Source of the DNA: a virus
Direction: 5' to 3' (one strand)
Length of the DNA stretch: 45,662 nucleotides
IMG/VR virus record: IMGVR_UViG_3300048838_000929
Location: 1-45,662 of that record
Each line of letters starts with the position of its first letter. Position 1 is the stretch's first letter. Of this stretch, positions 2,728 through 45,662 are shown piece after piece. Made by a program: the position numbers and the translations under genes. Under the pieces are notes generated by a model. It searched no databases, was not told the DNA's origin, and saw nothing but the letters and a program-made list of their open reading frames with translations.

Positions 2728-2751
2728 AGGCCTGGGGAACCGGGCCTTTTT
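2728..2751 (+). terminator. Intrinsic terminator or attenuator
   Basis: AGGCCTGG (2728-2735) pairs with CCGGGCCT (2740-2747) as an 8-bp stem with one G-T pair closed by a GGAA tetraloop, followed by TTTTT. A textbook rho-independent terminator between genes on the same strand. Confidence 0.85.
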
Positions 2752-2764
2752 CTGGAGCTGGAAA

Positions 2765-3296: not shown

Positions 3297-3327
3297 TGTA
3301 CCGCGGGGAAATTTTCAGGAGATTCAG

Positions 3328-3498
3328 ATGGCTACCAGGAAGATGAAAAGTGAAGTGGTGATTTTGAAAGTGACAGAGGACGAGAAGAAAAAATTCAACG
3401 ATCTGGCGATTGAGCATTTCGACGGGAACGTGTCAGCCCTGGTTCGATTTCTGATGAAGAAATTCGAGCAGGAGCAGAATCGCCGCAAACGCGCATAG
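3328..3498 (+). CDS. Ribbon-helix-helix DNA-binding protein
   Basis: 56 aa. The ATG at 3328 has AGGAG about seven bases upstream, so the upstream part of the frame (from 3286) is discarded. The pattern EVVILKVTEDEKKKFNDLA, then NVSALVRFLM, is that of MobC/Arc-type ribbon-helix-helix proteins: a short beta strand for the DNA groove, then two helices joined by a G-N-V-S turn. It is clearly related to the protein at 42039-42284, which shares VTEDEKK and GNVS. Likely a small transcriptional or origin-binding regulator. The TGTC-N9-GACA palindromes around the island are plausible targets, but this is not shown. Confidence 0.8.
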   Translation: MATRKMKSEVVILKVTEDEKKKFNDLAIEHFDGNVSALVRFLMKKFEQEQNRRKRA

Positions 3499-3507
3499 GA
3501 GTGAATT

Positions 3508-3762
3508 ATGGCTACGGACTGGAGGACGCTTGACCTCGGAAACCCTGAACACAGAAAGCAGCTTGTTTTGGAGCCGATTTCGTTTGAGGATTTGATAGAA
3601 GAGGCGAAAAGGATTCCTCACTCAAGTCCGCTTCGGGTTGCAGCGTTCATCAAATCACACATTCTGGAATCTGCATTTTCGATCGCTGACAGTCTGGTTG
3701 CTGGATACTGTGATCAGATTTGGGAGATTGCCGAGAGGGAGAGACAGAAAAATGGCGCCTGA
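3508..3762 (+). CDS. Hypothetical early protein
   Basis: 84 aa, unrecognised. GGAG lies before the ATG at 3508. Acidic and helical, with a hydrophobic middle (AAFIKSHILESAFSIADSLVAGY) too polar for a clear membrane helix. Its end overlaps the start of the next gene by 11 bases. Confidence 0.65.
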   Translation: MATDWRTLDLGNPEHRKQLVLEPISFEDLIEEAKRIPHSSPLRVAAFIKSHILESAFSIADSLVAGYCDQIWEIAERERQKNGA

Positions 3763-3943
3763 ACCCACAGCGGTACTTCTCTGTCGTGCGGTGGACCAGT
3801 TTGTTCTGGATCTGACGGAGGATGGGAGTTTGCCTGCTCTGCCTGAAATTACGCAGCAGCACATTCGTTCAAAGGTCGAGCGTTTTGCAGACCGTGTTTT
3901 TGAGCTGGGGTATAACCTTGGTCGAAACAACGAGCTACAATGA
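3752..3943 (+). CDS. Hypothetical early protein
   Basis: 63 aa from the ATG at 3752, within the end of the previous gene; the longer frame from 3638 overlaps that gene completely and is unlikely. Helical, ending GYNLGRNN, a pattern also seen at the end of the gene at 14366-14611 (KGYNLGIK). The shared tail suggests a short structural motif common to two phage proteins of unknown role. Confidence 0.6.
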   Translation: MAPEPTAVLLCRAVDQFVLDLTEDGSLPALPEITQQHIRSKVERFADRVFELGYNLGRNNELQ

Positions 3944-3986
3944 TGGGAGTCCCGGGACTCTGTTCTCGTGGGCGACTCTGAATTTA

Positions 3987-4025
3987 GGGGGATTGGGGTT
4001 TCGGCCTCATTCCCCCGACCAATTT
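3987..4025 (+). terminator. Hairpin with T-run; perfect palindrome just upstream
   Basis: GGGGGATTGGGG (3987-3998) pairs with CCTCATTCCCCC (4005-4016) with one mismatch, and TTTTT lies at 4023-4027. At 3947-3960 the 14-bp sequence GAGTCCCGGGACTC is a perfect palindrome that starts four bases after the stop of the preceding gene. Together they form a terminator or attenuator block before the gene at 4040. Confidence 0.6.
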
Positions 4026-4039
4026 TTAGGGGTAAATCT

Positions 4040-4291
4040 GTGGTTAGGACTTTGGAAGAGGAAGTCGATTTTTTCGACGACGACGACCACGAAATAAACC
4101 TGCTGGTGGAATACCAGTTTGAGCGCCGGAAACTGCCGGAAGGTGATGAGTGGGGATATCTGGGTTATCGAATAATCCGGGCCTGGCTGGATGGGGAAAA
4201 AATCGAGCCTGGCCGTTTGACGGGAAGCCAGCGGGCCAGTGCTCACAACGAAATCTGTGCGAAGAAACCGGACACTCGATTGCTGGACTGA
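4040..4291 (+). CDS. Acidic hypothetical protein, GTG start
   Basis: 83 aa. GTG at 4040 is chosen because AGGGG lies eight bases upstream; the frame is open back to 3968 but that part crosses the terminator-like hairpin. The N-terminus carries a run of acidic residues (EEEVDFFDDDDHE), followed by a beta-like segment (EWGYLGYRIIRAWLDG). No family recognised. A structured untranslated region follows. Confidence 0.55.
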   Translation: MVRTLEEEVDFFDDDDHEINLLVEYQFERRKLPEGDEWGYLGYRIIRAWLDGEKIEPGRLTGSQRASAHNEICAKKPDTRLLD

Positions 4292-4312
4292 GAGAGTTTT
4301 GGCGAGTCCAGG

Positions 4313-4429
4313 AGGGAGGCAACCCTGCAGGCGAAAGGTCTGTGGGTTTTTCCTGTGGGTGCCTCCCAAGGACTCATGGCAACCACGCAGGAGGTGGGCC
4401 ACTGCGTTAGATTGTACCACCCCCTGCCC
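4313..4429 (+). ncRNA. Candidate structured RNA (two long hairpins)
   Basis: No convincing gene lies in 4292-4685 on either strand. Two strong stems occur in it. GGGAGGCA (near 4313) pairs with TGCCTCCC (near 4368) and continues inward with CCC/GGG and CAGG/CCTG around an A- and T-rich loop. Then GCAGGAGGTGG (near 4389) pairs with CCACCCCCTGC (near 4429) with one mismatch. Plus-strand frames across the region are rich in Trp, Cys and Arg and look non-coding. It could be a small regulatory RNA or a long leader; orientation is assumed from the neighbouring genes. The remaining 4430-4623 shows nothing clear. Confidence 0.4.
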
Positions 4430-4623
4430 CCCAACCTATCCAGGTCTTTTTGACTTGGTATGTTTGGAGAACCGGGTTTCGGGAAGGCAGGTCCGAATTT
4501 TTCGATTCAGACTGCAATCCACTGCGAAAAATCCTTCCCAGGCTGGACGCGGCTTTCGAGGAAATCGCCTCGAGCTCACCTTATGGCCGTCTATCATCGG
4601 GTGCTGTTCCATGTCTGATTCCC

Positions 4624-4654
4624 AAAAAAAAGGACCGGGGAAAATCCCAGGTCC
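4624..4654 (-). terminator. Minus-strand intrinsic terminator
   Basis: GGACC-GGG (4632-4640) pairs with CCC-GGTCC (4646-4654). On the minus strand the stem is followed by eight Ts (4631-4624). It lies 32 bases beyond the stop of the minus-strand gene at 4686-4949, marking the end of a short opposing transcript. Confidence 0.75.
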
Positions 4655-4685
4655 CAAGAGACAATCCCTTGCCATCTGTACCGTG

Positions 4686-4949
4686 CTATTTTTTCAGGTT
4701 CAGAAAGCACTGGCTAGTGTCGGGCAGGAAGGCCTCGAAAAAAACATCCAGTGCGAGGTAGGCCGCATCGTCGATGGGAGTGGCGGTTTCCTTCGCCTTT
4801 GCTTTCAGCTTGGCGATAATTTCGTCCTTCTGAGCGCGAACCACAGGCACGAGAAAGCACTGGATCTGGTTTGCGAGTTTTTCGACGTTTTTCTGTGTCA
4901 GTTGTTTGAGCAGGAATTCGACCACGATTCCGATTAGCCAATCTTTCAT
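4686..4949 (-). CDS. Lone minus-strand small protein, possibly membrane-associated
   Basis: 87 aa, starting at the ATG at 4949 with GGGGG six to nine bases upstream; an open frame extends further upstream to 5096 but the SD favours this start. The N-terminus (DWLIGIVVEFLLKQL) is a hydrophobic/amphipathic helix; the C-terminal half has KLKAKAKETATPIDD followed by LALDVFFEAFL, a pattern seen in small phage holin-like or holin-associated proteins. It is the only minus-strand gene inside the early region and has its own TATAAT promoter element (4977-4982) and terminator (4624-4654). This looks like an independently regulated 'moron'-type unit. Function unproven. Confidence 0.65.
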   Translation of the reverse strand: MKDWLIGIVVEFLLKQLTQKNVEKLANQIQCFLVPVVRAQKDEIIAKLKAKAKETATPIDDAAYLALDVFFEAFLPDTSQCFLNLKK

Positions 4950-4976
4950 TTGAGCCCCCAAAGTGTTGGTGCTCCT

Positions 4977-4982
4977 ATTATA
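4977..4982 (-). promoter_or_regulatory. TATAAT -10 element for the gene at 4686-4949
   Basis: A perfect TATAAT reads on the minus strand about 28 bases upstream of the ATG at 4949. The -35 region at the expected distance is poor (no TTGACA), so strength or regulator dependence is uncertain. Confidence 0.5.
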
Positions 4983-5438
4983 CCGTAGATTTGTATTGGC
5001 ATGTTTGCCGTGCGGAATCCGGCAGGAGTAAAATGGAGTTTGCGTCCTCGGTTTGGCTAATTCAAAAAAACGCACGGTCAAATAATTGGCAGGCAAGGGC
5101 TGTAAAAAATCGAGAGGCCGGAAAACTTGTTGAAATTTTTCCCGGCCTCACTCATTTTTCGATCTGAATTTTGATTGATTGCGCAGTTTAAAAAAATTCG
5201 TTGTCCAAACGAAAAACCAGAAACCAGAGCTGATCTTGAAAGTTGTCCAGGCTTTAGATCTACCCTTTGCGTTTCGCTTCGGAGAAAGCAAAATGCTTTT
5301 GTGCTTCTATATCGCCGATGATTCGGCGTCAATGAATTTTCAATCCTCCCAATCAAATTTTCAAGCCTTTTATAATTTAAATGTACGCCATACCCAAAGG
5401 GTGTTTGCGAAATCCTCCAGTCGTTTCGGAGGTGTGGC
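4983..5438. promoter_or_regulatory. Divergent regulatory region before the replication gene
   Basis: This gene-poor region of about 450 bp separates the minus-strand gene from the plus-strand replication gene. GAGGCCGG (5114-5121) and CCGGCCTC (5142-5149) form a perfect 8-bp stem with a 20-nt loop followed by T-rich sequence. A plus-strand TATAAT is at 5371-5376, and the GGAGGTG SD of the next gene is at 5428-5434. The A+T-rich stretch around 5330-5385 could be an unwinding region, since phage initiators are often encoded next to their origin. Open frames within it start at TTG without an SD and are not supported. Confidence 0.5.
5371..5376 (+). promoter_or_regulatory. TATAAT -10 element for the replication gene
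   Basis: A perfect TATAAT followed by an A/T-rich discriminator 62 bases upstream of the ATG at 5439. The sequence 17 bp further upstream does not match TTGACA well. Confidence 0.45.
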
Positions 5439-6488
5439 ATGAGTGCAGCGCCTGCCGTCAAATTTCACAAGCGATCCAACGCGCTCCGCTCTGAATCCAA
5501 ATCCCGCGGCAATTTCGCAATGGTCCCCAAGGAAATCCTTCTGAAAAAGTGGCCTGCTGCCCGGTTCAGAATCTTTACCTACATCCTTGCATGTGCAGAC
5601 GATGCACTGATCTTTTCCTGGACGCTGGCTAGCGAACTGAACCTGTCGCGTTCGACAGTGATCGGTGAAATTAACTGGCTCGTGCGCCATGGGTATCTGG
5701 GTGTCCGCAAGGTTGGGATTAGATGTCCTGACGGATGGCGCGATGCGCATACCTGGGATGTGCTGCCGTCCTCTTCCTGGCGTGAAAAGGCTGAAACCCC
5801 GTCGCGCACCCGCATCCAGAAAACCGGACACGAGCCAGAATTACCTGAAAACGAAAATCCTGATTCCACGCAGGTTTGCGAACCGCAGTGTCAATCGCCC
5901 ACGTCCAGGAAACTGGACACTTTAAAAGACAGAAGAAAATATAAATCCAAAACTAAAGGGGGGAAATCCGCGGGCAATAAAATTGCCCCCCGTGACAAGG
6001 CGAGTGAGGTCACTCCTATTCGTCAAAAAATCACACTCGATTCCCTGGATGCCGATATGAGCGCAGCGATAGACGGACGCGCCATGGGATGCAGGGAACG
6101 GGAGAAGTTTCTGCGAACCCACCTGATCCAGAGATTCAGCCGCGATCAGATTCAGATGGTGATGCGGTGGCGCTCTGGACCGAAAGCGAATTTCTTCATC
6201 AGAGAATTTGGTTACGAATTTTGGCGACCTGCCTATGAATACCAACGCAAACGCTATTGGGACAATCTGCGCAGCCTGGACTACTGGGCACAGCTTATCG
6301 AGCTGGCGAAAACCGAGGCTGGGGTTTCTGAACCTGCCGCGGTCGAGGCCGAACCTGCCCCATCCAATCCCGAGCCTTCAGAGCCCGATTCCCCCCCTCA
6401 GCAGTCGCTTTGGGAATTGCCACTGCCCACGCCAGAGGAAGAAGCCGAAATGCGGGCTGCGTTCCTGGCTGCGATCACGAAGGGGTGA
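5439..6488 (+). CDS. Helix-turn-helix replication protein
   Basis: 349 aa with a GGAGGTG SD and ATG at 5439. Residues about 28-95 contain a winged helix-turn-helix of the kind found in phage replication initiators (HTH_36 type): an ARFRIFTYILACAD helix, then LASELNLSRSTVIGEINWL as the turn and recognition helix, then HGYLGVRKVG as the wing. The middle (about 120-200) is basic and low-complexity. A second folded region (about 205-290) follows, then a Pro/Glu-rich C-terminus (about 295-335). This matches replisome organisers: N-terminal DNA binding and C-terminal recruitment of host helicase or loader. No helicase gene was seen nearby, so host machinery is probably recruited. Confidence 0.75.
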   Translation: MSAAPAVKFHKRSNALRSESKSRGNFAMVPKEILLKKWPAARFRIFTYILACADDALIFSWTLASELNLSRSTVIGEINWLVRHGYLGVRKVGIRCPDGWRDAHTWDVLPSSSWREKAETPSRTRIQKTGHEPELPENENPDSTQVCEPQCQSPTSRKLDTLKDRRKYKSKTKGGKSAGNKIAPRDKASEVTPIRQKITLDSLDADMSAAIDGRAMGCREREKFLRTHLIQRFSRDQIQMVMRWRSGPKANFFIREFGYEFWRPAYEYQRKRYWDNLRSLDYWAQLIELAKTEAGVSEPAAVEAEPAPSNPEPSEPDSPPQQSLWELPLPTPEEEAEMRAAFLAAITKG

Positions 6489-6492
6489 GCCC

Positions 6493-6633
6493 ATGGTGAC
6501 AAAACAGCCCAAGCCATTCCATCATATTCCTGAGCGGGATCGGGTGAAGCCTGGTCCTCAGAAAAAATTCGTGGACGAGCTGATTAGGAAACTGACAGCT
6601 CCCGAGCCGAAGAAGAAGGAGGGGGAAAGGTGA
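6493..6633 (+). CDS. Small basic hypothetical protein
   Basis: 46 aa, ATG at 6493 with AGGGGTGAG upstream; the reading frame upstream belongs to a shadow of the replication gene. Very basic, with Lys/Pro-rich ends and one short helix (KFVDELIRKL). Its stop overlaps the GTG of the next gene. No family recognised. Confidence 0.55.
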   Translation: MVTKQPKPFHHIPERDRVKPGPQKKFVDELIRKLTAPEPKKKEGER

Positions 6634-6887
6634 TTCATTTTTTCATGCGATTTTTAGGCGGAAGTGGGGCAGGCGTGGTGGCTGGTCTGCCAGCGTTTCT
6701 GCTGTCAGCGTCGAGGGAGGAATGTGGCGGGAAATGGGTGGTTGGATTTTCGGAATCTTCAACCACGAACCGGATCACCTGTCAATCCTTCTCGGACTCG
6801 GAAGCAGCACTGCGTGCGATTTCCAACAAGTGCCGCCTTGGGTCAATTGTACGCTACGTTCGTTTTGAGCGGGAGGCCGGCGCATGA
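6630..6887 (+). CDS. Hypothetical protein with hydrophobic N-terminus
   Basis: 85 aa. The GTG at 6630 overlaps the previous stop and follows a GGGGGAAAG SD; the ATG at 6645 is an alternative. Residues about 3-27 (FMRFLGGSGAGVVAGLPAFLL) could be a membrane segment or signal. The remainder (GKWVVGFSES; SEAALRAISNKC) is a compact alpha/beta stretch. Unrecognised. Confidence 0.55.
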   Translation: MIHFFMRFLGGSGAGVVAGLPAFLLSASREECGGKWVVGFSESSTTNRITCQSFSDSEAALRAISNKCRLGSIVRYVRFEREAGA

Positions 6888-7069
6888 AAGGTGAATCGTC
6901 TGAACAGTTTCTGCGTTTGCTCGATATTGGCTGGACCGCTCTGGCGGTGGTTTTCCTGCTGACGATGTATGGCGTGTCGCTGCGTGTGAAAAATCCGCAT
7001 CTCAGTGATCGTGAAATTCATTCCCGCGTGATTGGCTTTTTCTTTGAACACGGAGGCGAGACGCCATGA
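6884..7069 (+). CDS. Small single-span membrane protein
   Basis: 61 aa, starting in a 4-base ATGA overlap. One clear membrane helix (WTALAVVFLLTMYGVSLRV, about residues 17-35) with a cytoplasmic or periplasmic tail of about 25 residues. No family recognised. Part of an overlapping chain of five genes from 6493 to 7712. Confidence 0.65.
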   Translation: MKGESSEQFLRLLDIGWTALAVVFLLTMYGVSLRVKNPHLSDREIHSRVIGFFFEHGGETP

Positions 7070-7326
7070 GGCTTTTAACTCAGGAGGAAGTTTCGATTCT
7101 TCCAGCGGGAACCGAGGTGTGGGTGATCTGGGCCTGGGGTTGGATGCCGAAGCGTTATGTGATTCGGCACCGCGGAGGATTTGCCTGCGCGGTCTGCGAG
7201 GAAACGCCTCAGAAGGTTGCAGGCGTTCTCGGTATGGTGGGGAACACTGTGTTTGACGATCGGGTGTGGATCGCCGAGAAGACGATTCCGGTTCACAGAG
7301 AGCAGGTGGCAGTGTGCATGGCTTGA
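7066..7326 (+). CDS. Hypothetical small protein
   Basis: 86 aa, starting in an ATGA overlap. Beta-rich (VWVIWAWGWMPKRYVI; ACAVCEE) with one C-x2-C, too little to claim a zinc site. It overlaps the start of the nuclease gene. Confidence 0.55.
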   Translation: MRLLTQEEVSILPAGTEVWVIWAWGWMPKRYVIRHRGGFACAVCEETPQKVAGVLGMVGNTVFDDRVWIAEKTIPVHREQVAVCMA

Positions 7327-7712
7327 TTCTGGCTGCGGTTTTGTCTTCGTTCAACAATGTGCAGGTGACGAGGGTTTACGATGGCGACACTTTCATGGTC
7401 AATCTTCCAGCTCAGGCGCCTGTTTTTGGGGAAAACATCAGTGTCCGCATTCTCGGCATTGATACGCCTGAAATTCTGGATGAAAGACCTTGTGCAAGGA
7501 AAGCCGCTCAGGAGGCGCGGGATGCGCTTTCGGGTCTGATGAAGGGTTCCGTGGTGGATCTGGTGAACTGCCAGCGGGACAAGTATTTTCGTCTCGCCTG
7601 TGAGGTGCATCTGGATGGTTGGATGGATGCCGGCGAGGTTTTGCTTTTCATGAATCTCGCAGTTCCGTATGATGGCGGCACGAAACCGAAATGGTACTGT
7701 CGGAGGCCCTGA
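7314..7712 (+). CDS. Staphylococcal nuclease (SNase)-like nuclease
   Basis: 132 aa if started at the GTG at 7314, which has GCAGGTGG upstream; the frame before it overlaps the previous gene. Thermonuclease signatures are present in order: VTRVYDGDTF (Ca2+-binding Asp at about 23-25), VRILGIDTPE (catalytic Arg45 and Glu53), and DKYFRLACEV (Arg93 in place of the usual DKYGR). This is a compact SNase domain that cleaves DNA or RNA. The N-terminus (HGLILAAVLSSF) is hydrophobic and could be a short signal or anchor, so the enzyme might act outside the cytoplasm. Possible roles are host DNA breakdown or processing of recombination intermediates. Confidence 0.85.
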   Translation: MHGLILAAVLSSFNNVQVTRVYDGDTFMVNLPAQAPVFGENISVRILGIDTPEILDERPCARKAAQEARDALSGLMKGSVVDLVNCQRDKYFRLACEVHLDGWMDAGEVLLFMNLAVPYDGGTKPKWYCRRP

Positions 7713-8041
7713 TGAAAACCTATGATCCCAGGAAAGTCAGGATTTCCATAGGCGGTATCGAGATTGAACCTGTGACGGAGGAAATCGCCATGAATGCAGG
7801 CCATCCATCGAATCGAGTCTGTGAGGAAAATCTGGACGATGTTTTCACATATCATGCGGACGCGCGGCGTAATATCCACTACGAAAAGATCCGCGATTCG
7901 GCGAAGGAATTTGCTCGTGCGATTCTTGAAAATTCGCCGGATTGTGCAGATAAGAGCGTTGCGCTCCGAAAGGTTCGTGAAGCGGTAATGGCAGCAAATG
8001 CGGCAGTGGCGCTCGCGCCTGAGTATCCGTGGTCGCAGTGA
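7712..8041 (+). CDS. Acb2/Tad1-like cyclic-nucleotide sponge (predicted anti-CBASS/Thoeris)
   Basis: 109 aa from the ATG at 7712, overlapping the nuclease stop by one base. Residues 41-101 read LDDVFTYH, then YEKIRDSAKEFARAILENSP, then a short Cys/Asp loop, then LRKVREAVMAANAAVAL. This is the pattern of the Acb2 (T4 Vs.4-like) helical-hairpin family, whose hexamers bind and sequester cyclic oligonucleotides made by CBASS, and with Tad1 also ADP-ribose signals of Thoeris. The first 40 residues are not typical of the family: TYDPRKVRISIGGIEI resembles the N-terminus of the tail tube protein encoded at 30910-31338. A strong terminator follows. Family assignment is by motif memory; ligand and host defence are unknown. 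Confidence 0.75.
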   Translation: MKTYDPRKVRISIGGIEIEPVTEEIAMNAGHPSNRVCEENLDDVFTYHADARRNIHYEKIRDSAKEFARAILENSPDCADKSVALRKVREAVMAANAAVALAPEYPWSQ

Positions 8042-8077
8042 GAGAGAGACACCAGTAGTCAGTAAAAGAGTCAGAGG

Positions 8078-8111
8078 CCGCAGGAGGGAATTTTCTTCTT
8101 GCGGTTTTTTT
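8078..8111 (+). terminator. Strong intrinsic terminator
   Basis: CCGCAGGAGGG (from 8078) pairs with TTCTTGCGG (ending 8104), about 11 base pairs counting G-T pairs, followed by seven Ts (8105-8111). It closes the transcription unit ending in the Acb2-like gene. Confidence 0.85.
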
Positions 8112-8166
8112 GTGTGAATCGTAAAAGCGATGCAAGCGTAATTTGATGGAGTGCGCGAAAGTCTGA

Positions 8167-8292
8167 ATGCCTGACGGCACAACGACCGCAGAATCCTCCC
8201 GAGGCATCCCTGCCTTATCCGTTCTGCAGAAATCCCTGGAATGGGAATCCGTCAACCGTCTGTTGAACTGCCTCAAATTTAAGTTTTGTTAG
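8167..8292 (+). CDS. Doubtful 41-aa open frame
   Basis: ATG at 8167 to TAG at 8290-8292, 41 aa with a helical segment (SVLQKSLEWESVNRLLNCL). There is no well-placed SD: GGAG at 8146 is too far away. The only support is that a strong terminator begins eight bases after the stop, so a transcript across this interval ends here. It may be a small gene or part of a non-coding RNA. Confidence 0.25.
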   Translation: MPDGTTTAESSRGIPALSVLQKSLEWESVNRLLNCLKFKFC

Positions 8293-8299
8293 GAATTCA

Positions 8300-8336
8300 G
8301 CGCCGAAACCGTGAGGCCCACGGCGCGATTTTTTTT
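8300..8336 (+). terminator. Intrinsic terminator
   Basis: GCGCCG (8300-8305) pairs with CGGCGC (8321-8326), with a competing inner stem CCGTG/CACGG, followed by eight Ts (8329-8336). This is the second plus-strand terminator within 260 bp, implying a separate short transcript between 8112 and 8336. Confidence 0.75.
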
Positions 8337-8512
8337 CACGCTCGCCTTTCTGCATGGCGAAAAAAAAGCGTGTTGCAATTTTGTTTTCGGTGCTGTAACA
8401 ACGAAAGTGTTTTCGTTGAAAGCCGCTCGGCGTGCGGGACTGGTGAAATACCTGAGCGCCTTGCTTAAATCCTGGAGATGTAAATGTTAGTGTTCCGAGA
8501 AGGGAGCCAGCC
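8337..8512. other. Structured leader upstream of recE-like gene
   Basis: No gene is supported here. CAACGAAA (8399-8406) and TTTCGTTG (8411-8418) form a perfect 8-bp hairpin with loop GTGT. Just upstream, GGCG/CGCC with an A8 run reads as a minus-strand terminator. The GGGAGCC SD of the exonuclease gene is at the end. The region could be a leader controlling recE/recT expression. Confidence 0.45.
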
Positions 8513-9304
8513 ATGGCTCTGATGAAAGATTATTATTCCTACAAAGCCCTCAGCAATTCCGGCATCAAAAGAATTCTGCGATCCCCTGCGCACTTCAAAC
8601 ACTGGCTCTCGGCCGAGCGCAAAATGTCAAAGTCCCTGATTCTCGGGGAATTGGTCCATTATTTTCTCCTGCGTCCCGACCTCGTTGCAGATGAGGTCGC
8701 CGTGTTCGAGAAGGGAAAAACGCTCGACAGCAAACTTGGCAATAAATTTATCCTGAACAACCCGGATAAATTCTGCTGTACCCGCGACCAGTACGAATAT
8801 GCCGAACACGTTTCCAAAACAATCCTGCAGGACAGGCGTGTCAGCCGTTTGATCGGACTGCCCAACGCCAAGCGCGAACACCCGATTATCCAAACAATCA
8901 ATGGAGTGCCCGGAAAAGCACTCTACGATTTGCTCAGTCCCGAAATCATTCTGGATGTGAAAACGCACAGCGACGAAGGCGGATACTTCAATAACGCTGA
9001 AAGTTTCGACGCCAACTTTTTCAAGTATGGCTACGATATTCAGGCCGCATGGTATCAGCGCATGGCTGAAATCTGGGATGGAATGCGCCGCGACGTGCTC
9101 TTTCTGGTGGTCGAAATGGAGGAACCATTCGCCTACACGATTCGGCAGGTTGAGCAGGACGATATGGATTCGGCGTGGACCGATTGCGAACGCGCCATCG
9201 AAATCTATAAGGAATGTCTGGCGACTGACGTTTGGCCTGGTTATCCGTTTGAAATTCGGACCATCAAAAAACCGAAGTGGCGGAAGATGCAGCAAATGGC
9301 ATGA
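8513..9304 (+). CDS. RecE-like 5'-3' exonuclease (DUF3799, PD-(D/E)XK fold)
   Basis: 263 aa, GGGAG SD. The N-terminal YYSYKALSNSGIKRILRSPAHF and GELVHYFLL (His50) are typical of the exonuclease VIII C-terminal domain family. The active-site region has GKALYDLLSP (Asp139) followed by ILDVKTHSDEGG (Asp148, Lys150), i.e. the D-x(n)-D-x-K core, then YDIQAAWYQRM. It should resect double-strand ends to produce 3' single strands for the RecT protein encoded next. Together they supply phage homologous recombination and possibly recombination-dependent replication or genome circularisation. Confidence 0.9.
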   Translation: MALMKDYYSYKALSNSGIKRILRSPAHFKHWLSAERKMSKSLILGELVHYFLLRPDLVADEVAVFEKGKTLDSKLGNKFILNNPDKFCCTRDQYEYAEHVSKTILQDRRVSRLIGLPNAKREHPIIQTINGVPGKALYDLLSPEIILDVKTHSDEGGYFNNAESFDANFFKYGYDIQAAWYQRMAEIWDGMRRDVLFLVVEMEEPFAYTIRQVEQDDMDSAWTDCERAIEIYKECLATDVWPGYPFEIRTIKKPKWRKMQQMA

Positions 9305-9311
9305 ATGCTAA

Positions 9312-9346
9312 AACCCCGCAGGACTGGTGAAGCCTGCAGGGTTTTT
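9312..9346 (+). terminator. Intrinsic terminator between recE-like and downstream genes
   Basis: AACCC-GCAGG (from 9312) pairs with CCTGC-GGGTT (to about 9343) with one C-A mismatch, followed by TTTTT. It starts eight bases after the recE-like stop and lies within the same operon direction, so it is probably an attenuator. Confidence 0.8.
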
Positions 9347-9376
9347 CTCGGATCATTCGACACCTGGAGATGCCCT

Positions 9377-9508
9377 ATGTCCGTAATCAAAATCATAGCG
9401 CGACTGATTCCGTGGCGCAAGCCCTCGTGCGTGAAAAAAAATCCCCAGGTAATGGACACACTCTACCTAACGGGCCGTCAGTGGCTCAATATCCCTATCC
9501 ACAAATGA
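9377..9508 (+). CDS. Small basic hypothetical protein
   Basis: 43 aa, ATG at 9377 with TGGAG at 9364-9368. The N-terminus (SVIKIIARLIPWRK) is an amphipathic basic helix. Unrecognised. The frame upstream crosses the terminator, and the alternative frame from 9370 overlaps recT and is a shadow. Confidence 0.45.
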   Translation: MSVIKIIARLIPWRKPSCVKKNPQVMDTLYLTGRQWLNIPIHK

Positions 9509-9524
9509 AAAAAAGGAGCCAGAC

Positions 9525-10370
9525 ATGGCCAGCGCACCTGCAATCCAGAAACCCAAAACCCCTGAATTCTACCTCGAAACACAGTTTGAGCAGATCAAAA
9601 TGGCACTCCCTCGGCACGTCGATGCAGAGAGGATGCGCCGCATCTGTTTGACGGAACTGCGCAAGAACGACAAATTGCGCGAGGCTGCCAACCGCAACCC
9701 CCTCAGCTTTTTCGGCTCGGTGATCCAGGCTGCACAGCTCGGACTTGAACCAGGATCAGGCCTCGGCCACTGCTACCTGATTCCCTATGGCCAGGAAGTT
9801 CAATTCCAGCTCGGATACCAGGGGATGATCGAACTCGTGATGCGCACAGGAAAACTCGCCAGTCTGAAAACCGGGGTGGTCTGTGACGGCGAACTGTTCA
9901 TCACGGAAACCACGCACGAAGGCGAGATTTTTCGCCACATGCCGGATCTTGAACTGGATATCAGGGACGAGTCAAACATCCGATACGTGTACGCAATCGC
10001 GCGGCTGAAGGGCTCCGAAATCCCGCTCATAGAAATCATGACCAAGGCGCAGGTGAATGCGAACGAGGCCAAAAACCGCAAGGGGCAGAAACGCAGTGGT
10101 CCCTGGAACGATTACTGGCCGGAAATGGCACGTAAAACCGTGTTGCGCAAAATCTATAAAATGCTCCCAAAAAATCCGGAGATGGTGGAGCTGATGGAGC
10201 GCGAGGACGAAGGCAACACGAACATGGCAGACGTTGCCAAACGCGCAGGCCTGGATCGCACCATGGGAGGCAGCAGCCCACAGACGACACGCACAGGAGC
10301 TGCGAGTGTTATGGCCGATATTATGGAAGCCGAAGCAACCGTGACGACAGCCGAGACAAACCCTGTCTGA
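9525..10370 (+). CDS. recT: RecT single-strand annealing protein
   Basis: 281 aa with an AAGGAG SD. It contains the conserved RecT core: FFGSVIQAAQLGLEPGSGLGHCYLIPYG, then FQLGYQGMIELVMRTG, then YAIARLKG, then WPEMARKTVLRKIYKMLP. RecT/Beta-type annealases coat single-stranded DNA and pair complementary strands, here with the RecE-like nuclease encoded immediately upstream. The last about 60 residues are a polar, probably disordered tail. A strong terminator follows the stop. Confidence 0.95.
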   Translation: MASAPAIQKPKTPEFYLETQFEQIKMALPRHVDAERMRRICLTELRKNDKLREAANRNPLSFFGSVIQAAQLGLEPGSGLGHCYLIPYGQEVQFQLGYQGMIELVMRTGKLASLKTGVVCDGELFITETTHEGEIFRHMPDLELDIRDESNIRYVYAIARLKGSEIPLIEIMTKAQVNANEAKNRKGQKRSGPWNDYWPEMARKTVLRKIYKMLPKNPEMVELMEREDEGNTNMADVAKRAGLDRTMGGSSPQTTRTGAASVMADIMEAEATVTTAETNPV

Positions 10371-10382
10371 TTCTCGATAGCG

Positions 10383-10414
10383 GGCGGTGCGGGTGGTTCC
10401 CGCACTGCCTTTTT
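10383..10414 (+). terminator. Strong intrinsic terminator after recT
   Basis: GGCGGTGCGGG (10383-10393) pairs along its full length with CCCGCACTGCC (10399-10409), including one G-T pair; the loop is TGGTT and a T5 run follows (10410-10414). It is among the strongest terminators in the window. Confidence 0.88.
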
Positions 10415-10448
10415 CCCCCACAAATTTCAAAGGCACCTGGAGAAACAA

Positions 10449-10967
10449 ATGCCTCGCACCTACCCGAAAATCCTGCTCGAATTTCACCAAATCGCTGAAC
10501 TGGCACAACTCGCAAGAAACGCAGGGCTGGCCAGGGATGGATACTCGCGTGATGATCAAAATAATTTCCTCAAAATGATGCAGGCCGAGCAGGATTACAC
10601 GGAAAAACTCGTGAAAGAAAATACCGTGCAGAGAGCCGGCGAAACATTTCTCGAAGGAAATCCTCACTGGCTTCCCGAGGACTGCAAAATCGTCTGGACC
10701 GTGCAGAAAAAAGGCCGCCGCTTCCTGCCTCTCGATTTGTCCAGGCGATACCTCGTCTGGCACGTCGCGCCGTGCTGCGGGTGTCGCGCCATGGCCATCA
10801 TGGATCCGGCAGACCAATACCGATACGCCGGCTGCCAGCCCTGCATCAAGGCCTGGGAGGAAGACATGGAGGCGGAATCGCGTCCGCATGTGGAGTACAC
10901 AACGTCCTGCAGAAAATGCGGCAGTTCTGATGTAAACAGGTGCTGGTGTTACGGCGATCCCTATTAA
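10449..10967 (+). CDS. Cysteine-rich hypothetical protein (possible zinc binding)
   Basis: 172 aa with a CTGGAG SD. The N-terminal half is helical. The C-terminal half has two cysteine clusters: PCCGCRAM plus CQPC (about residues 115-135), and CRKCGSSDVNRCWC near the end, which together resemble two zinc-knuckle or ribbon sites. Unrecognised beyond that. It may bind nucleic acid with the adjacent recombination proteins. Confidence 0.65.
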   Translation: MPRTYPKILLEFHQIAELAQLARNAGLARDGYSRDDQNNFLKMMQAEQDYTEKLVKENTVQRAGETFLEGNPHWLPEDCKIVWTVQKKGRRFLPLDLSRRYLVWHVAPCCGCRAMAIMDPADQYRYAGCQPCIKAWEEDMEAESRPHVEYTTSCRKCGSSDVNRCWCYGDPY

Positions 10968-19951: not shown

Positions 19952-20943
19952 ATCTGACTCCTGAGCTGAGAGAGGAAAAAGGGAATTTCCTCTGGTGATG
20001 GAAGAATCCGCTGCATCATCTCCGGCGTGCAGAATTCGATGGAAACCTCGTCTTTCTGTACCGGCGACCAGCTCATATAATTATAGAGCCCATCGTGGCC
20101 AAAGTCTTTCATGCGCCAGCCGAATTGCCCTTTGCGCCAGTGATACAGGAAATCCGGATGCTTGCAGCTCGCCACAAATGCGATAAAGGCCTCGCCAGCG
20201 GCAGCAATATGAATCGGGCTGGAATCGTTGGTCACAACGAATTTGCAGCCTTTTAGCAATGCCACCAATTCTGATACAGAAAGCTGATCACGAAGGTCGA
20301 TCACATCATCCCGAACGATCGGCACATATCCCAGGGTTTCATCCACGTTTTTCCCAATCAGGCAAACGTCGAAACCATAAAAATGCAGGCTGTCGATCAC
20401 TGAATTCCACCACTCAACCGGAAACGTCTTCGACTGCCAGTGGCGCCCTGCGTGGACAACAACCAGATTTTGCTTGTGCCTCAGAACATGGTGAATAGGC
20501 GAGCTCGCGTCCAGATCAAATTCTGGAAGGCGAACCTGCTTGGCGGAATTAGGGAGCTGGCAACGTAAAGTGGAAACTGAAATGTAGTCCACGCAATGAA
20601 GCAATGGGTGAGTGTAAAACTCCCAGTTCAGACTTCTGACGGGACGAATCGTATCGAGAACATAGAAATCATTTTCGTCAACTTCCCCTGGTCGATAAGC
20701 ACGGCACGGGAGATGCGAAAAAAGTTCAGGCATATCAGTCTGAATCGAAATCGAAACACTGAGGAAATTCTGGATCGCAAACGCGATAACAGGCTCGGCG
20801 CATACAACGTCACCGAGCCCGCCAGGAAGCTTGAAAAGCCAGCGTTTGTCAGTTCCACGCTGGAGAGCATGAAAGACCCGAAAACTCGGAATCTCCCATG
20901 CAGGAATTGTTGCCTTGTCAGATGGCGTAGGGATTGGGTTCAT
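19948..20943 (-). CDS. GT9 (heptosyltransferase-like) glycosyltransferase
   Basis: 331 aa, close to the family length. Motifs of GT-B heptosyltransferases: WLFKLPGGLGDVVCAEPVI (GGLGD 41-45), VVVHAGRHWQSKTFPVEWW (162-178, like HPGS...KRWP), and VVTNDSSPIHIAAAGEAFI (236-254, the D-S-x-x-x-H-I-A-A nucleotide-sugar site). Family members transfer heptose or related sugars onto LPS core. In a phage it could modify host surface LPS to exclude competitors or decorate the phage's own fibre. Being between the RCC1 tail protein and the lysin, with overlapping ends, it is co-expressed late with the fibres. Confidence 0.85.
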   Translation of the reverse strand: MNPIPTPSDKATIPAWEIPSFRVFHALQRGTDKRWLFKLPGGLGDVVCAEPVIAFAIQNFLSVSISIQTDMPELFSHLPCRAYRPGEVDENDFYVLDTIRPVRSLNWEFYTHPLLHCVDYISVSTLRCQLPNSAKQVRLPEFDLDASSPIHHVLRHKQNLVVVHAGRHWQSKTFPVEWWNSVIDSLHFYGFDVCLIGKNVDETLGYVPIVRDDVIDLRDQLSVSELVALLKGCKFVVTNDSSPIHIAAAGEAFIAFVASCKHPDFLYHWRKGQFGWRMKDFGHDGLYNYMSWSPVQKDEVSIEFCTPEMMQRILPSPEEIPFFLSQLRSQI

Positions 20944-22271
20944 TTCACGTATTCCAGTACCATGATGTTATAGCCGGAATTGTGGCAGATGATTTCGTTT
21001 CCGAATTTCACGACACCAGCTCCGACCGTGATTGCGTAGGAAGTGCCAGGGGTCACGTCCACATATTCTCTTGCCACCGCAATTTTCGAGAAATTTGTGT
21101 CAAAACGCTGGTTGCCAACCATCTGAACTGGCGAACGCTGAATAGTGGTTGTTCCGTTACCTATAGCGCCGTCGAGGTTGTCACCCCAAACCCACAATGT
21201 TCCGTCAGCCTTCAGACCTGCATAGAAAAAATCGCCTGCATTGCAGTGGATAAACGTATGCCCACCTATAACAGCGGTCGGGCTGGAAACCTCCGTGTAA
21301 CCCACATTTCCAACACCCAACTCGCCATCGAGGTCCAAACCCCATGCCCAGGCTGCGCCACTCGAATCCAGGCCAAGGACCATGTTGGATCCGCTCGAAA
21401 TGTGCATCCACGTCGCAGGTCCTGCCACCTGTGTCGGCGTGCTCCGACTCCCGCTGCCAGGAATTCCCAGCTCCCAACTTCCATTGGATCCAGCCGCATA
21501 AAGCGTCCCGTCGTCCGCCAGAAAAAACGATGTGCTGGCGAGGGTGGCGGAAAGCATCTTCCACGTCTTGGCAGGAGTCGTCACCTGCACAGGAGAACTG
21601 CGGGTGGTTGTATCACCGAGGCCGAGCTGGCCGTTTGCGTTGTATCCCCAGCCATAGGCATTGCCAGCCTCACTGATTGCCATGGACCAGTCGGAACCCG
21701 CTTCGACGAATTTAAACTTCAGATTGTTCAGTACACGAACCGGCGTGCTTTTGGCCACGTTCGTCCCATCGCCAAGCTGGTAAGAGCTGTTGTTGCCCCA
21801 TGCCCATAGATAACCGTCCTGGTCGATTCCAAGGCTGTGAGTGCCGCCGCCTGCCACCATTTTGAAACGAACCCCGGTGGCCACCTGAACAGGAAATGAT
21901 TTGTTGGAGCCTGAATTGTCACCAAGGCGACCGTTCAGGCCGGAACCCCATGCCCAGCACCGTCCCTGCTCATCGAGAGCAAAGAAGTGATAGCCACCGT
22001 TTGCCACGCTTTTGAATTTCGGCCAGGGATTTGTGGGAATCACAGGCGAACTTTTCGACGCCGTTGTGCTATCACCCAATTCGCCAGAACCACTGTACCC
22101 CCAAGTCCAGAGCTGCCCGTCCTGCCCGAGAGCTAGCGAGGTTGAAAAACCTGCGCGGATTTTCTGGCTCAATTCCCGTGAATCAAAAACCGAAACCAGG
22201 ACTTTTGTCACGCCGCCTGGAGCTGTCCAGTTGGAATCGGCCGAATACTGCTTGATAATGCGGTTGCTCAT
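20940..22271 (-). CDS. Tail-tip protein with seven RCC1-type propeller repeats
   Basis: 443 aa. Seven repeats of the W-x-WG-x(3-5)-G-x-LG type (for example LWTWGYSGSGELGD, CWAWGSGLNGRLGD, YGWGYNANGQLGLGD, LWVWGDNLDGAIGNG) predict one seven-bladed RCC1 beta-propeller. The flanks are not RCC1: the N-terminus (SNWTAPGGVTKVLVSVFD) and C-terminus (YVDVTPGTSYAITVGAGVV) are the two halves of a Gly-rich phage fibre-tip domain (normally a T-x-PAGVTKV half and a PGTSYxVTVGAGG half). The propeller thus seems inserted where that domain's glycine-rich loops would be. Likely receptor-binding or adhesin-like. Confidence 0.85.
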   Translation of the reverse strand: MSNRIIKQYSADSNWTAPGGVTKVLVSVFDSRELSQKIRAGFSTSLALGQDGQLWTWGYSGSGELGDSTTASKSSPVIPTNPWPKFKSVANGGYHFFALDEQGRCWAWGSGLNGRLGDNSGSNKSFPVQVATGVRFKMVAGGGTHSLGIDQDGYLWAWGNNSSYQLGDGTNVAKSTPVRVLNNLKFKFVEAGSDWSMAISEAGNAYGWGYNANGQLGLGDTTTRSSPVQVTTPAKTWKMLSATLASTSFFLADDGTLYAAGSNGSWELGIPGSGSRSTPTQVAGPATWMHISSGSNMVLGLDSSGAAWAWGLDLDGELGVGNVGYTEVSSPTAVIGGHTFIHCNAGDFFYAGLKADGTLWVWGDNLDGAIGNGTTTIQRSPVQMVGNQRFDTNFSKIAVAREYVDVTPGTSYAITVGAGVVKFGNEIICHNSGYNIMVLEYVK

Positions 22272-42284: not shown

Positions 42285-42296
42285 AAGGTAGTGGAA

Positions 42297-42887
42297 ATGA
42301 GTGAAGCAGCTATGAGCGCGAAAGGCCTGGAGCATGTGGAGGACATGAAAATCGAGTGGGTTGACCTTGAGGTGGTGAAGGCTTACCACAAAAACCCACG
42401 CAAAAACGACCAGACTGTGGACGAGCTGGCGAAGTGGATTTCCAAGGTTGGCTGGCGTCAGCCGATCGTGGTGGACAAGGACAAGGTGATCGTGGTTGGT
42501 CACACCCGCTGGAAGGCCGCGAAAAAATTGGGCTGCAAGCGTGTTCCGATTCATGTGGCTGAAAACCTCACCAAGGCTCAGATCAAAGCATACCGCATTG
42601 CCGACAACCGGGTACATGAGCTGTCGGAGTGGGAAGGCGATTTACTGAAACAGGAATTGGACGAACTTGTTCAGATGGATTCCCTGTTTGACCTGAATTT
42701 CATGAATTTCAGCCTGCAGGAAATTGACGAAAAGGGAAAGGAGGAATCCTGGGATTTTTCTGAGGTTCAGGACCAGACTGTTATTACGATCACGGTTCCA
42801 TTGGCGAAACAGCCGGAAGTCATGTCCGCATTGAAAAAGGCTGGAATCAGTCAGGAAGAAATTTCGCTCACCAACATCAAGAAGTGA
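42297..42887 (+). CDS. ParB N-terminal domain protein
   Basis: 196 aa from the ATG at 42297 (AAAGG SD). Core motifs: NPRKNDQTVDELAKWI (33-48), RQPIVVDKDKVIVVGHTRWKAAKKLG (54-79) and AQIKAYRIADNRVHELSEW (94-112). This is the ParB/Srx fold as found in phage proteins, often fused to or beside DNA methyltransferases. The HTH and dimerisation domains of chromosomal ParB are missing. The C-terminus (KQPEVMSALKKAGISQEEI) is helical. It may bind nucleotides (CTPase-like) or act as a nuclease; here it precedes a methyltransferase-fold gene. Confidence 0.85.
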   Translation: MSEAAMSAKGLEHVEDMKIEWVDLEVVKAYHKNPRKNDQTVDELAKWISKVGWRQPIVVDKDKVIVVGHTRWKAAKKLGCKRVPIHVAENLTKAQIKAYRIADNRVHELSEWEGDLLKQELDELVQMDSLFDLNFMNFSLQEIDEKGKEESWDFSEVQDQTVITITVPLAKQPEVMSALKKAGISQEEISLTNIKK

Positions 42888-42895
42888 GGCGTGAA

Positions 42896-43771
42896 ATGAA
42901 AGAGAATATCAGGATAGACATAGTTCATCCTCCAGGCAGCAGTGGAATTGGGACTGATGATATTCCTGTGGCGCATGATCTGCCTGAAGTTGCGGAATTG
43001 CAGAAAGAGAAGAAATACAAGCTGAAGCTTCCGCGCGTTGTTCACAAGAAAATCCATATTTCCAAAGAGAACAGTTCTGCGGAGCAGAAGGTGAATCTGA
43101 GGAAACGCATACTTGCAGAATTGGGAGTGGAAAACCCTAGAATTCTTGATGCGTATTGCGCTCATGGTCAAATGTGGAAGACTGCATATGATTCGACTGA
43201 AAACTATGTGGGACTGGATCAGAAGCTTTTCTTTGATGAGCGGAAAACTGTGGTTTGCGACAACACGCGGTATCTCAGAATGGTTGACGTGGACCAGTTT
43301 GATGTATTTGATCTTGATGCGTTCGGCAATCCATTTGAGTGTTTGTATATAATCGTGAATCGTCTGAAATGGAGCAGAACAGATCGTGTGGCTGTATTCC
43401 TCACAGACGGTACTGCGTGGAATGCCAAGCGGAATGCGCAGCCGAAAGGGTTCATGCACTGGCTTGGTGCAGAACACCGCGATAAATCTCAGTATCGGAT
43501 GCGTGATCCATTCATCAAGACTGCGATCATCAAAGCTGCGGAAATCTGTGGTGCCGAGCTTGGGCAGGTGCAGGCGATCATGAAAACTGCTGGATGTGCG
43601 ATGCGGTATATTGGATACGTGATGCACAAAAGTCCAATATCTCAGATTTCAGCGGAAAAAAATGAGACGGAAAACGGTGGAATCAGTGTTTCCGAGGAAA
43701 CGTCTCAAAAACCGCTGATTTCTGCGAACGTGTCAGAAATCACGGATCCAAAAGAGCTGATTTACAAATAA
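42896..43771 (+). CDS. Trm1/TcmP-like methyltransferase-fold protein
   Basis: 291 aa from the ATG at 42896 (GAGG six bases upstream). Class I SAM-dependent methyltransferase layout: motif I-like ILDAYCAHGQMWKTAYD (83-99), an acidic strand end VGLDQK, then VVCDNTRYL, and a motif IV-like FDVFDLDAFGNPFECLY (135-151), similar to the D-x-DPFGSP of Trm1 tRNA guanine-26 methyltransferases and to the DPFG of 'three-Cys-motif partner' (TcmP) proteins. The usual catalytic Pro is replaced by Ala in DLDAFGNP. AVFLTDGTAWNAKRN follows. It reads towards the island and, across it, the DUF5131 gene. Substrate unknown. Confidence 0.65.
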   Translation: MKENIRIDIVHPPGSSGIGTDDIPVAHDLPEVAELQKEKKYKLKLPRVVHKKIHISKENSSAEQKVNLRKRILAELGVENPRILDAYCAHGQMWKTAYDSTENYVGLDQKLFFDERKTVVCDNTRYLRMVDVDQFDVFDLDAFGNPFECLYIIVNRLKWSRTDRVAVFLTDGTAWNAKRNAQPKGFMHWLGAEHRDKSQYRMRDPFIKTAIIKAAEICGAELGQVQAIMKTAGCAMRYIGYVMHKSPISQISAEKNETENGGISVSEETSQKPLISANVSEITDPKELIYK

Positions 43772-43948
43772 ATGCAGATTTTCTGCAAAATGGTTGTTTC
43801 ACGCCAGTTCCACGAACAGCGGAAATCACGAAAAACCGCTGATTTTGGACTTTTCTGCAGAGAAAACACACAAAATCACGGTATTTTTGGAATGATGCTT
43901 GCATAAAAATGTCAACCTGCAAAAACTCATCGCTGCATGGCATCCGGC

Positions 43949-44252
43949 TGTCGAATAGTTTGACAGTCGGGTGTCGCCTCGGTTTCCACCGTCAAGTTTT
44001 TAGACAGCGCATCGGGCACGGTATATGCCGCTATATGAGGCCATATATGGCGCCTATATTGGCTTATACGGCGGCCTAATCGGTCGGTTAATACCGATAT
44101 GGCCGATAGGGTTCGGCTCGATCGGCGGGCTGATTTGCGGCCTTAAAACCCGGGTGCCCGCCAACGTGATTTCATTTGGAATTTTCGGCACGAAATCTTT
44201 CACGCGGTAAGGCTGTCGATTAAATAGACGGTCGGTGTCCGGTCGCTTGACG
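43949..44252. promoter_or_regulatory. Cluster of TGTC-N9-GAC(A/G) sites at the right island border
   Basis: TGTC-N9-GACA at 43949-43965; CGTC-N9-GACA at 43990-44006; TGTC-N9-GACG at 44214-44230 and again at 44236-44252 (22 bp apart). Between them lies a TATATA-rich stretch (about 44017-44057). This mirrors the left border, where the same sites (1136-1171) flank TATATA tracts. The interval contains a 61-codon open frame (44025-44210) without an SD that I do not accept as a gene. Confidence 0.55.
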
Positions 44253-44408
44253 GTCGATGGGGTTCGCGCGTGCGCGTATCGTTGCCGGTCGTTCGTCGTT
44301 CGTTGGGGTTCGATTCGTATCGGCGGCGGTCGATGGGGTTCGGTCGGGGTTCGATCGGCGGTCGGCACAGTGGAAAAACCCGCCATTCCCTCGGCGGTTT
44401 TTCGATTC

Positions 44409-44543
44409 TTACTCGGCGGATTTTTTCCGCGTTTCCCATGCTTTCTTCGCGGCGGCCGATCGTTTCGCTTTCTTCGCCTCATCGTTCGCGCGGCGGGTTT
44501 CCCAAGCTTTTTTCGCGGCGGTAACATTTTTTTCGTTTTTCAT
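44409..44543 (-). CDS. Two-copy KAWETRR mini-protein
   Basis: 44 aa; start at the ATG at 44543, seven bases after CGGAG; another ATG at 44549 is too close to the SD. The protein reads as a short leader (KNEKNV) and two copies of AAKKAWETR(R/K) at about 9-18 and 31-40, very basic and probably all-helical. The start KNEKxV-AAKKAW is shared with the gene at 44997-45206. DNA encoding the first motif is part of a 22-bp exact repeat with that gene (44483-44504 and 45017-45038). Role unknown; nucleic acid binding is plausible. Confidence 0.65.
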   Translation of the reverse strand: MKNEKNVTAAKKAWETRRANDEAKKAKRSAAAKKAWETRKKSAE

Positions 44544-44996
44544 TTTCATTCTCCGTTTCGATTTCGTTTCCGGCGAACCGTTCGCCGTTCATATAAAGCT
44601 TATCGGTCGATCGGCGGAAAACTTTAGGCCGATACGAAAATTTTTTTCGGTAAGATTTTGAACCGGGGTTCGGGTATCGTCGGCCGGTCGGTGCCCGGTC
44701 GCGCGGCGGTCGTATCGTCGGCCGGTCGCACGGAGCACGGTTCGCCGATCGGGAAACGGCCGCGCGGTTCGATCGGCGGCCGGGGTTCGATCGGTCGGCC
44801 GGGTTCGGCGGTTCGATCGCACGGCGGCCGGTTTCCGGGCATCGCATCGGGGTTCGGCGCGGCGGTCGGTGCCCGGTCGCACGGTCGGCCGATCGGCGGC
44901 GGCCGGGTTCGGCATCGGTGCCCGGAGCACGGCGGCGGTTCGGCCTGAAACGAAACGGCCGGAAATTTTTCCCGGCCGCTCGATTAAATTCGACGA
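44544..44996. other. Island sequence without a supported gene
   Basis: Composed of TCGG, TTCGG, GCACGG and GCCCGG words. Long open frames appear on both strands, but they are Arg/Pro-rich products of the vocabulary, without SDs, and are rejected. No hairpin with a T-run was seen except the GC-rich inverted words common to the region. Confidence 0.55.
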
Positions 44997-45206
44997 TTAA
45001 CCCGCGATCAACACGGCGTTCGCGCGGCGGGTTTCCCACGCTTTATAAGCCGCCTCGCTCGCTTTCGCCGCACGCTTATTTTCACGAATCGTTTCCCACG
45101 CTTTCAACGCCGCCGCGCGGGCTTTTTCACGGCGCTTATTTTCACGAATCGTAACCCAAGCTTTTTTCGCGGCCAAAACCATTTTTTCGTTTTTCATCGT
45201 TTCCAT
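44997..45206 (-). CDS. Three-copy KAWETRR repeat protein
   Basis: 69 aa; the ATG at 45206 follows CGGAG (a CGTTT microsatellite precedes it on the plus strand). After an 11-residue leader come three 20-residue units: AAKKAWVTIRENKRREKARA, AALKAWETIRENKRAAKASE and AAYKAWETRRANAVLIAG. The repeat is also visible in DNA: a 20-bp word recurs at 45073-45092 and 45133-45152, exactly 60 bp apart. Highly basic and helical. Together with the one-copy (441-890) and two-copy (44409-44543) proteins it forms a series. Function unknown. Confidence 0.7.
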   Translation of the reverse strand: METMKNEKMVLAAKKAWVTIRENKRREKARAAALKAWETIRENKRAAKASEAAYKAWETRRANAVLIAG

Positions 45207-45535
45207 TTTTTTTCTCCGTTTCGTTTCGTTTCGTTTCATCGTTTCACAAGATATATAATGCAGGCCGCGTGCCGCACGGGTTTCACGGAGTTATTAGGCG
45301 GTTAGGGAAAACGGTCGGTGCCTAAAGACTTGACGGCAAAAGGTAATGATATGGCGAAATGCGGTCGCAAACCCGCGCCGTGATTAGGGTGCCGGGATTT
45401 CGACAGCGACTAATCGTTAGGCGGTTCGCCGGGGTTCGTCGGCTTATATATTCGGCCGGGGTTCGATCGGTGCCGGTCGGCCGGTCGGTGCCCGGGGTTC
45501 GGGGTTCGGGGTTCGGGGTTCGATCGGTTCGGGCA
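45207..45535. other. Island sequence next to the array, no supported gene
   Basis: Contains (CGTTT) repeats (about 45215-45239), ATATATAATG near 45250, two TTAGGCGGTT words (about 45293 and 45416), and further on the G-quadruplex motif at 45494-45518. Several short open frames lack start signals. AT-rich spots and G-rich repeats next to the CGGT array would fit an origin, but nothing proves it. Confidence 0.5.
45494..45518 (+). other. Perfect G-quadruplex motif (GGGGTTC)n
   Basis: GGGG at 45494-45497, 45501-45504, 45508-45511 and 45515-45518, separated by TTC each time: four G4 tracts with uniform 3-nt loops, predicted to fold as a very stable intramolecular quadruplex. It lies 18 bp before the CGGT array on the G-rich strand. 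Confidence 0.85.
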
Positions 45536-45662
45536 CGGTCGGTCGGCGGTCGGTCGGTCGGTCGGTCGGCGGTCGGCGGTCGGTCGGTCGGTCGGTCGGT
45601 CGGTCGGTCGGTCGGTCGGTCGGTCGGTCGGTCGGTCGGTCGGCGGTCGGTCGGTCGGTCGG
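45536..45662. repeat. 127-bp terminal direct repeat (copy of 1-127)
   Basis: Parsing both ends into CGGT and CGG units gives the same series (2, 5, 1, 16, then four CGGT and a final CGG), so 45536-45662 is identical to 1-127. The copies are direct, not inverted. A length of exactly 127 equals a common maximum k-mer size of short-read assemblers, so this is best read as the overlap of a circular assembly path, giving a true length of 45,535 bp. A biological terminal redundancy of this size is the less likely alternative. Confidence 0.93.

Follow-up and report, generated by a model that had tools for sequence, protein, structure and literature searches.

The locus and its limits

The window, i.e. 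the whole stretch of 45,662 nt that was analysed (record IMGVR_UViG_3300048838_000929), holds the 45.5 kb genome of a bacterial virus, a circle of 45,535 bases in which an island of ∼2.7 kb with an alien vocabulary lies across the contig end. A two-state, second-order Markov model was applied to the circle, started from the limits of an earlier, sequence-only reading (43949 and 1135) and decoded with the Viterbi algorithm; it returned one alien segment only, with a log-likelihood gain of 633 nats. The left half of this segment runs from the change point at 43968 to 45535 and joins the right half, 1 to the change point at 1109, across the contig end. Island and core are separated by a strand-symmetric dinucleotide distance of 0.34, compared with a mean of 0.05 and a maximum of 0.085 for 2.5 kb core windows; across 66 other loci the most deviant 2.5 kb window lies ≤0.18 from the rest of its locus. 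The sequence-only reading had described a sharply different island with sharp transitions at about 43950 and 1135, and both statements are confirmed, with the transitions placed at 43968 and 1109.

The host is a divergent, contractile-tailed phage. It carries a contractile-tail gene set (sheath and baseplate J) and genes for a portal, TerL, RecT, exonuclease VIII, an Acb2/Tad1 hairpin protein and a ParB-N protein; all named phages are distant from it (TerL ∼39% and portal ∼32%, the best among the matches listed), and no TerL relative above 42% identity was found in the searches. The Acb2/Tad1 hairpin-domain protein (7691–8041; Pfam E = 5e-12) is likely to be a sponge against CBASS/Thoeris signalling, and an RCC1-repeat β-propeller protein among the tail genes (20940–22271; E = 4e-72) is probably receptor-binding or fibre-like. 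The island is flanked on one side by rightward genes ending at 43771 and on the other by a rightward DUF5131 gene (open reading frame 1191–2087, likely ATG at 1224). The ParB-like (ParB-N) gene lies nearby at 42291–42887. In the gene directly after it (42896–43771), motifs like those of class I methyltransferases can be seen by eye (LDAYCAHGQMW and DLDAFG); with its limits taken as 42884–43771, this neighbour gave no relative and no family match in the searches. An initiator-like gene at 5439–6488, with a weak match to phrog_270 (E = 2e-4), is 4.3 kb from the island.

Composition of the island

In the island dialect the base after a C is nearly always G or C, and CA/TG and AG/CT are avoided, in genes and repeats alike. 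Relative to expectation, CpG stands at 1.99×, TG/CA at 0.41, AG/CT at 0.33 and AA/TT at 1.85; the CpG excess and the depletion of TG/CA and AG/CT are shared by coding and non-coding island DNA, and the bias is weaker in the part adjoining the left border (TG 0.52). CTGG/CCAG, TCTG/CAGA and TCCT/AGGA do not occur at all, where the core predicts 27–33 of each (33 for CTGG/CCAG). CAG/CTG is ninefold rarer than in the core and CCG/CGG 3.6-fold commoner, and the strongest contrast between island and core is that of CAG with CGG (38-fold). The rarity of CTG and CAG reported from the letters alone is borne out by these counts, and the CpG-rich words listed in that reading (CGGTCGG, TTCGG, CGATCG, GCACGG and CGGCCG) are confirmed: eight words derived from them together make up 39% of the non-coding DNA of the island versus 2.5% of the core.

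The third-position G+C content of the island genes is the same as that of the core genes (0.586 in both), and the difference of the island is therefore neighbour-dependent. Leucine is never encoded by CTG (0 of 8 codons, compared with 142 of 322 in the core), codons for Gln, His and Cys are absent, and 34 of 59 Ala codons are GCG. For the three island genes, a null was constructed by holding the amino acids fixed and drawing synonymous codons at core frequencies; it is rejected by 6–9 s.d., with CG observed 130 times (77 ± 6 expected), CA+TG 43 times (86 ± 6) and CAG+CTG three times (25 ± 4). Across the codon junctions of the same genes C|A and C|T occur once each, with 28.7 and 10.1, respectively, expected from the core. 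The claim that even the genes use the island vocabulary is upheld by the codon counts and by this null. Low complexity as the whole explanation is rejected because the bias is present at synonymous sites of coding DNA, and codon preference is rejected because non-coding DNA carries the identical bias.

Genes, array and repeats

Three leftward genes with KAW-E-T-R-R motifs lie in the island, opposite in orientation to their rightward neighbours. All are on the minus strand: a small basic protein of 46 residues with two KAWETR motifs (44409–44549; start at 44549 or at the better-spaced 44543), a small basic protein of 69 residues with three KAW-T-R/I-R motifs (44997–45206; with a 60 bp internal DNA repeat) and a coiled-coil-like protein of 149 residues with one KAWETRRARR motif (441–890; with a GGAG ribosome site before it, the protein being supported by alignment and by a low-confidence helical model). 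A common leader, CGAAACGGAG, found upstream of all three by direct reading, puts a GGAG ribosome site before each, which argues that the three open reading frames are real genes. The 69-residue protein is predicted to be a single long helix (AlphaFold pLDDT of 86 from a single sequence with no alignment, modelled without the first Met). No solved structure was found by sequence match to the island proteins, and the helical model likewise gave no match when used to search for similar folds. The three proteins had been described as a private family, a claim that does not hold: the KAWxT(R/I)R motif also occurs in small proteins of two other phages (L091 and L092) and within nuclease-like proteins of two more loci (L058 and L065). 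The scan of the island for promoter and terminator consensus sequences gave counts at the chance level, with no pair above chance, and no structured RNA or tRNA was found.

The simple repeat array of the sequence-only reading is present as ∼50 irregular CGGT/CGG units on the plus strand at 1–191 (TRF and unit decoding). As 45536–45662 repeats 1–127 exactly, this second copy is the assembly end overlap (127-base terminal identity, plus strand) and the array is one stretch of ∼190 bp, not two. The contig ends within the array. Closure of the circle depends solely on this overlap, which lies wholly inside the repeat units; assemblers commonly use a maximum k-mer of 127 bases, which suggests this as the source of the overlap length. 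No 80-base word occurs twice in the array, and the irregular order of the units makes the overlap fairly specific. The core junctions at 43968 and 1109 lie in complex sequence more than 900 bases from the array and are independent of the overlap. The circular overlap had been taken as proof that the island is physically part of the genome; the overlap is real, but what links each half to the core is the continuity of the contig.

The quadruplex motif noted previously is also present (three GGGGTTC units followed by GGGG; 45494–45518, plus strand) and is the only one in a pattern scan, with none in the core. A non-coding block at 44663–44948 consists of dispersed repeats (CGGTCGGTGCCCGGTCGC.CGG and GGTTCGATCGG), and word repeats in the non-coding island DNA exceed those of an order-3 Markov model of the same DNA: 53 repeated 14-mers were counted versus a mean of 2.6 and a maximum of 15 in the model.

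Border sites

Exact TGTC-N9-GACA sites occur in the window only at 43949, 1136 and 1155. With one mismatch allowed the count is at the chance level, 19 versus 17.4 expected over the window. The left copy (43949–43965) is held in a border hairpin at 43941–43974 with a 15 bp stem (fold of 43940–44110, z = −3.9), and a second left border site, CGTC-N9-GACA at 43989–44009, forms an 86% inverted repeat (18/21) with a relative inside the island at 45316–45336. At 44211–44235 the left border site recurs in decayed form, identical to 43946–43970 at 20 of 25 positions and with CAG changed to CGG. These interior relatives of two left-border elements are better than any obtained in 300 Markov simulations (0/300 as good), and by their sequences the left border sites and the island interior appear to share ancestry. 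The two exact palindromes on the right (1136–1171) lie just outside the border, upstream of the DUF5131 gene, and no relatives of them were found inside the island. The border palindromes resemble one another by inspection and no target duplication was seen. The borders had been called symmetrical, with palindromes outside and TATATA tracts inside. Palindromes are indeed present at both borders, and TATATA tracts lie along the inner side of the right one (1001–1102), but the left has ATATAT and TATATG instead of TATATA, so that the symmetry is only rough.

Searches for relatives

The sequence-only reading had proposed a search for the same island in phages or plasmids; no DNA relative emerged from 50,697 phage and 72,556 plasmid records, the plasmid search being made with the left half of the island only. 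A three-word pattern gave 51 matches in 84,980 species genomes, none with the composition of the island, although a donor without those exact words would escape this pattern. Scans of virus contigs for KAWETRRAN, GGTTCGATCGGTCGG, paired GTTCGATCGG and CGGT arrays gave no second island. Haloarchaeal loci (Halorubrum and Natronoglomus) were considered as a source and rejected: CG is ∼1.5 but AG is 0.8 and GA is 1.6, which does not match. The possibility that the island is a transition-mutated copy of core DNA was also rejected; in purine/pyrimidine coding, which ignores transitions, the longest match is 27, with controls at 27–31. Literature searches on islands of deviant composition or on tetranucleotide arrays in phage genomes turned up nothing relevant.

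An island 15-mer led to L023 (IMGVR_UViG_3300033516_000099), part of an unrelated virus contig of 31.5 kb. The 10.5 kb fetched (1–10539; 46% GC) show a milder form of the island dialect throughout, with CG at 2.0, AG at 0.53 and TG at 0.72 (0.41 in the island), and the codon junctions follow it (C|A 0.54, C|T 0.42 and C|G 1.86). At the protein level no match between L023 and the window was found. Named phages gave no hit for its tail-like protein, and its Sak4-like protein has matches (∼40%, covering 45% of the protein) in phages that infect many different hosts.

CGGT arrays are also present in unrelated virus contigs (L152, L184 and L069–L072), some with related words, and their flanks are ordinary; the fetched stretches of L182 and L184 also stop inside such arrays. 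In several virus contigs (L068–L072) the DNA is ordinary apart from a CGGTCGG/CGG array and an adjacent GC-rich block, and at 1–890 of L152, a 37 kb virus contig, two blocks of GGTCGGTCGATCG-type repeats flank ∼380 bp of ordinary DNA.

Origin of the island

The alien character of the island DNA within this genome is strongly supported, synonymous codon positions included. Our leading account, held with middling confidence, treats the island as a moron-like accessory module acquired from an unsampled donor replicon that shares its dialect. Foreign origin is the best-supported explanation and accounts jointly for the sharp borders, the orientation of the genes and the bias in coding and non-coding DNA. 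The module would have arrived from another replicon into the rightward early region of the phage, where its genes would be read leftward, each from a ribosome site of its own. The island vocabulary would mark the replicon where the module evolved, in which nearly every C precedes G or C, and would still be un-ameliorated towards that of the phage; replicons with such a signature exist, as L023 shows a milder form along 10.5 kb. Judging from basic, helical sequence and neighbourhood, the three small KAW-repeat proteins may be DNA-binding, with the neighbouring repeats and palindromes as targets that they organize or regulate, and the dispersed repeats probably grew by slippage and local duplication. 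The single sharp segment, a dinucleotide distance beyond that of any core window or of the 66 other loci, the bias at synonymous sites with third-position G+C equal to the core, the milder dialect of L023, the opposite orientation and the lack of core-derived trace support acquisition. Against it stand the searches of phages, plasmids and species genomes, in which no donor or second copy was found, the milder dialect of L023, which shares no genes with the island, and the mild zone nearest the left border; the decayed relatives of the left-border palindromes inside the island fit a local origin equally well. The sequence-only reading had offered a captured replicon or origin module: capture is the best-supported part, albeit with no donor found, whereas the replicon or origin part is unsupported, with no replication protein found among the island open reading frames.

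The same reading had offered a special mutational regime as its alternative, and we consider regional mutation or selection in place unlikely. Resident cis-acting phage DNA would have moved steadily from CA/TG and AG/CT to CG- and GG-type dinucleotides, while short words multiplied by slippage. In favour of such a history are the decayed interior relatives of the border sites, with CAG changed to CGG, the CAG versus CGG contrast as the strongest of all, the surplus of non-coding 14-mers and the milder left border zone. Against it are the sharp borders and a purine/pyrimidine comparison that shows no trace of mutated core sequence; L023 displays the rule over a long stretch, so that no local process is needed, and we know of no agent that produces such a context rule. 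In-place conversion is thus weaker than foreign origin, and it seems improbable that a palindrome-bounded phage segment came under its own neighbour-dependent regime, its genes and non-coding DNA being rewritten to a C-then-G vocabulary with the adjoining DNA unaffected.

It is similarly doubtful that the island is foremost a functional cis-acting region (partition/centromere-like, origin or packaging), the repeats and palindromes being targets of the island's own KAW proteins or of the nearby ParB-like protein and the vocabulary a by-product of binding-site selection. Support for such a region comes from some seven related palindromes located in the island or at its edges, the CGGT array, quadruplex motif and TATATA tracts, the ParB-like gene and the recurrence of CGGT arrays in unrelated contigs. 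This reading nevertheless leaves the synonymous-site bias of the genes unexplained and has to contend with a one-mismatch palindrome count at the chance level. Moreover, phage ParB-N domains are often found in nuclease- or methyltransferase-linked proteins rather than in partition (the search matches include both kinds), the initiator-like gene is distant, and an origin function is supported by none of the tests run. Finally, during assembly the array could have caused DNA from a different replicon to be attached at the ends of the phage genome, as a contig that ends inside an array, a closure of 127 array bases and the similar ends of L182 and L184 might suggest. Such an artefact is very improbable: both core junctions lie far from the array in complex sequence, no 80-base word is repeated within it, and the two halves share genes, leader and vocabulary.

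The rule that C precedes G or C, present in genes, synonymous sites and spacer together with an unchanged third-position G+C content, makes a clean signature that depends on neighbouring bases. An acquired island would point to a group of replicons marked in this way, L023 being one virus that shows it; an island made in place would represent a mutation regime confined to one bounded part of a phage genome.

Comparison with known systems

As an acquired module, the island is most readily compared with the morons of temperate phages, which likewise have a foreign composition (here 0.34 versus a core maximum of 0.085), are self-contained, are oriented opposite to the neighbouring phage genes and have their own ribosome sites. 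It differs from them in being mostly non-coding and repetitive, in having no promoter/terminator pair above chance and no known cargo function, and in its far more extreme signature. The initiator gene of a captured replicon is absent from the module, no transposase or recombinase domain, as in a transposable element, was found in the island proteins, and the two small KAW proteins gave no NUMOD profile match even at E = 10. The KAW-T-R-R proteins of L091, L092, L058 and L065 share the basic KAWxT(R/I)R motif, which is sometimes repeated and in L058 and L065 sits inside GIY-YIG/HNH-like nucleases (family assigned by eye), but they have ordinary composition and are not encoded by three clustered genes. 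The arrays of L152, L184 and L069–L072 resemble that of the island in their CGGT/CGG units, in some related words and in lying outside obvious genes, but their flanks are of ordinary composition with no TG/CA depletion, and no KAW genes occur in the part fetched. L023, at 46% GC, is milder, shares no genes with the island and has no KAW proteins in the part fetched, but it follows the same neighbour rule along the fetched 10.5 kb, including at its codon junctions.
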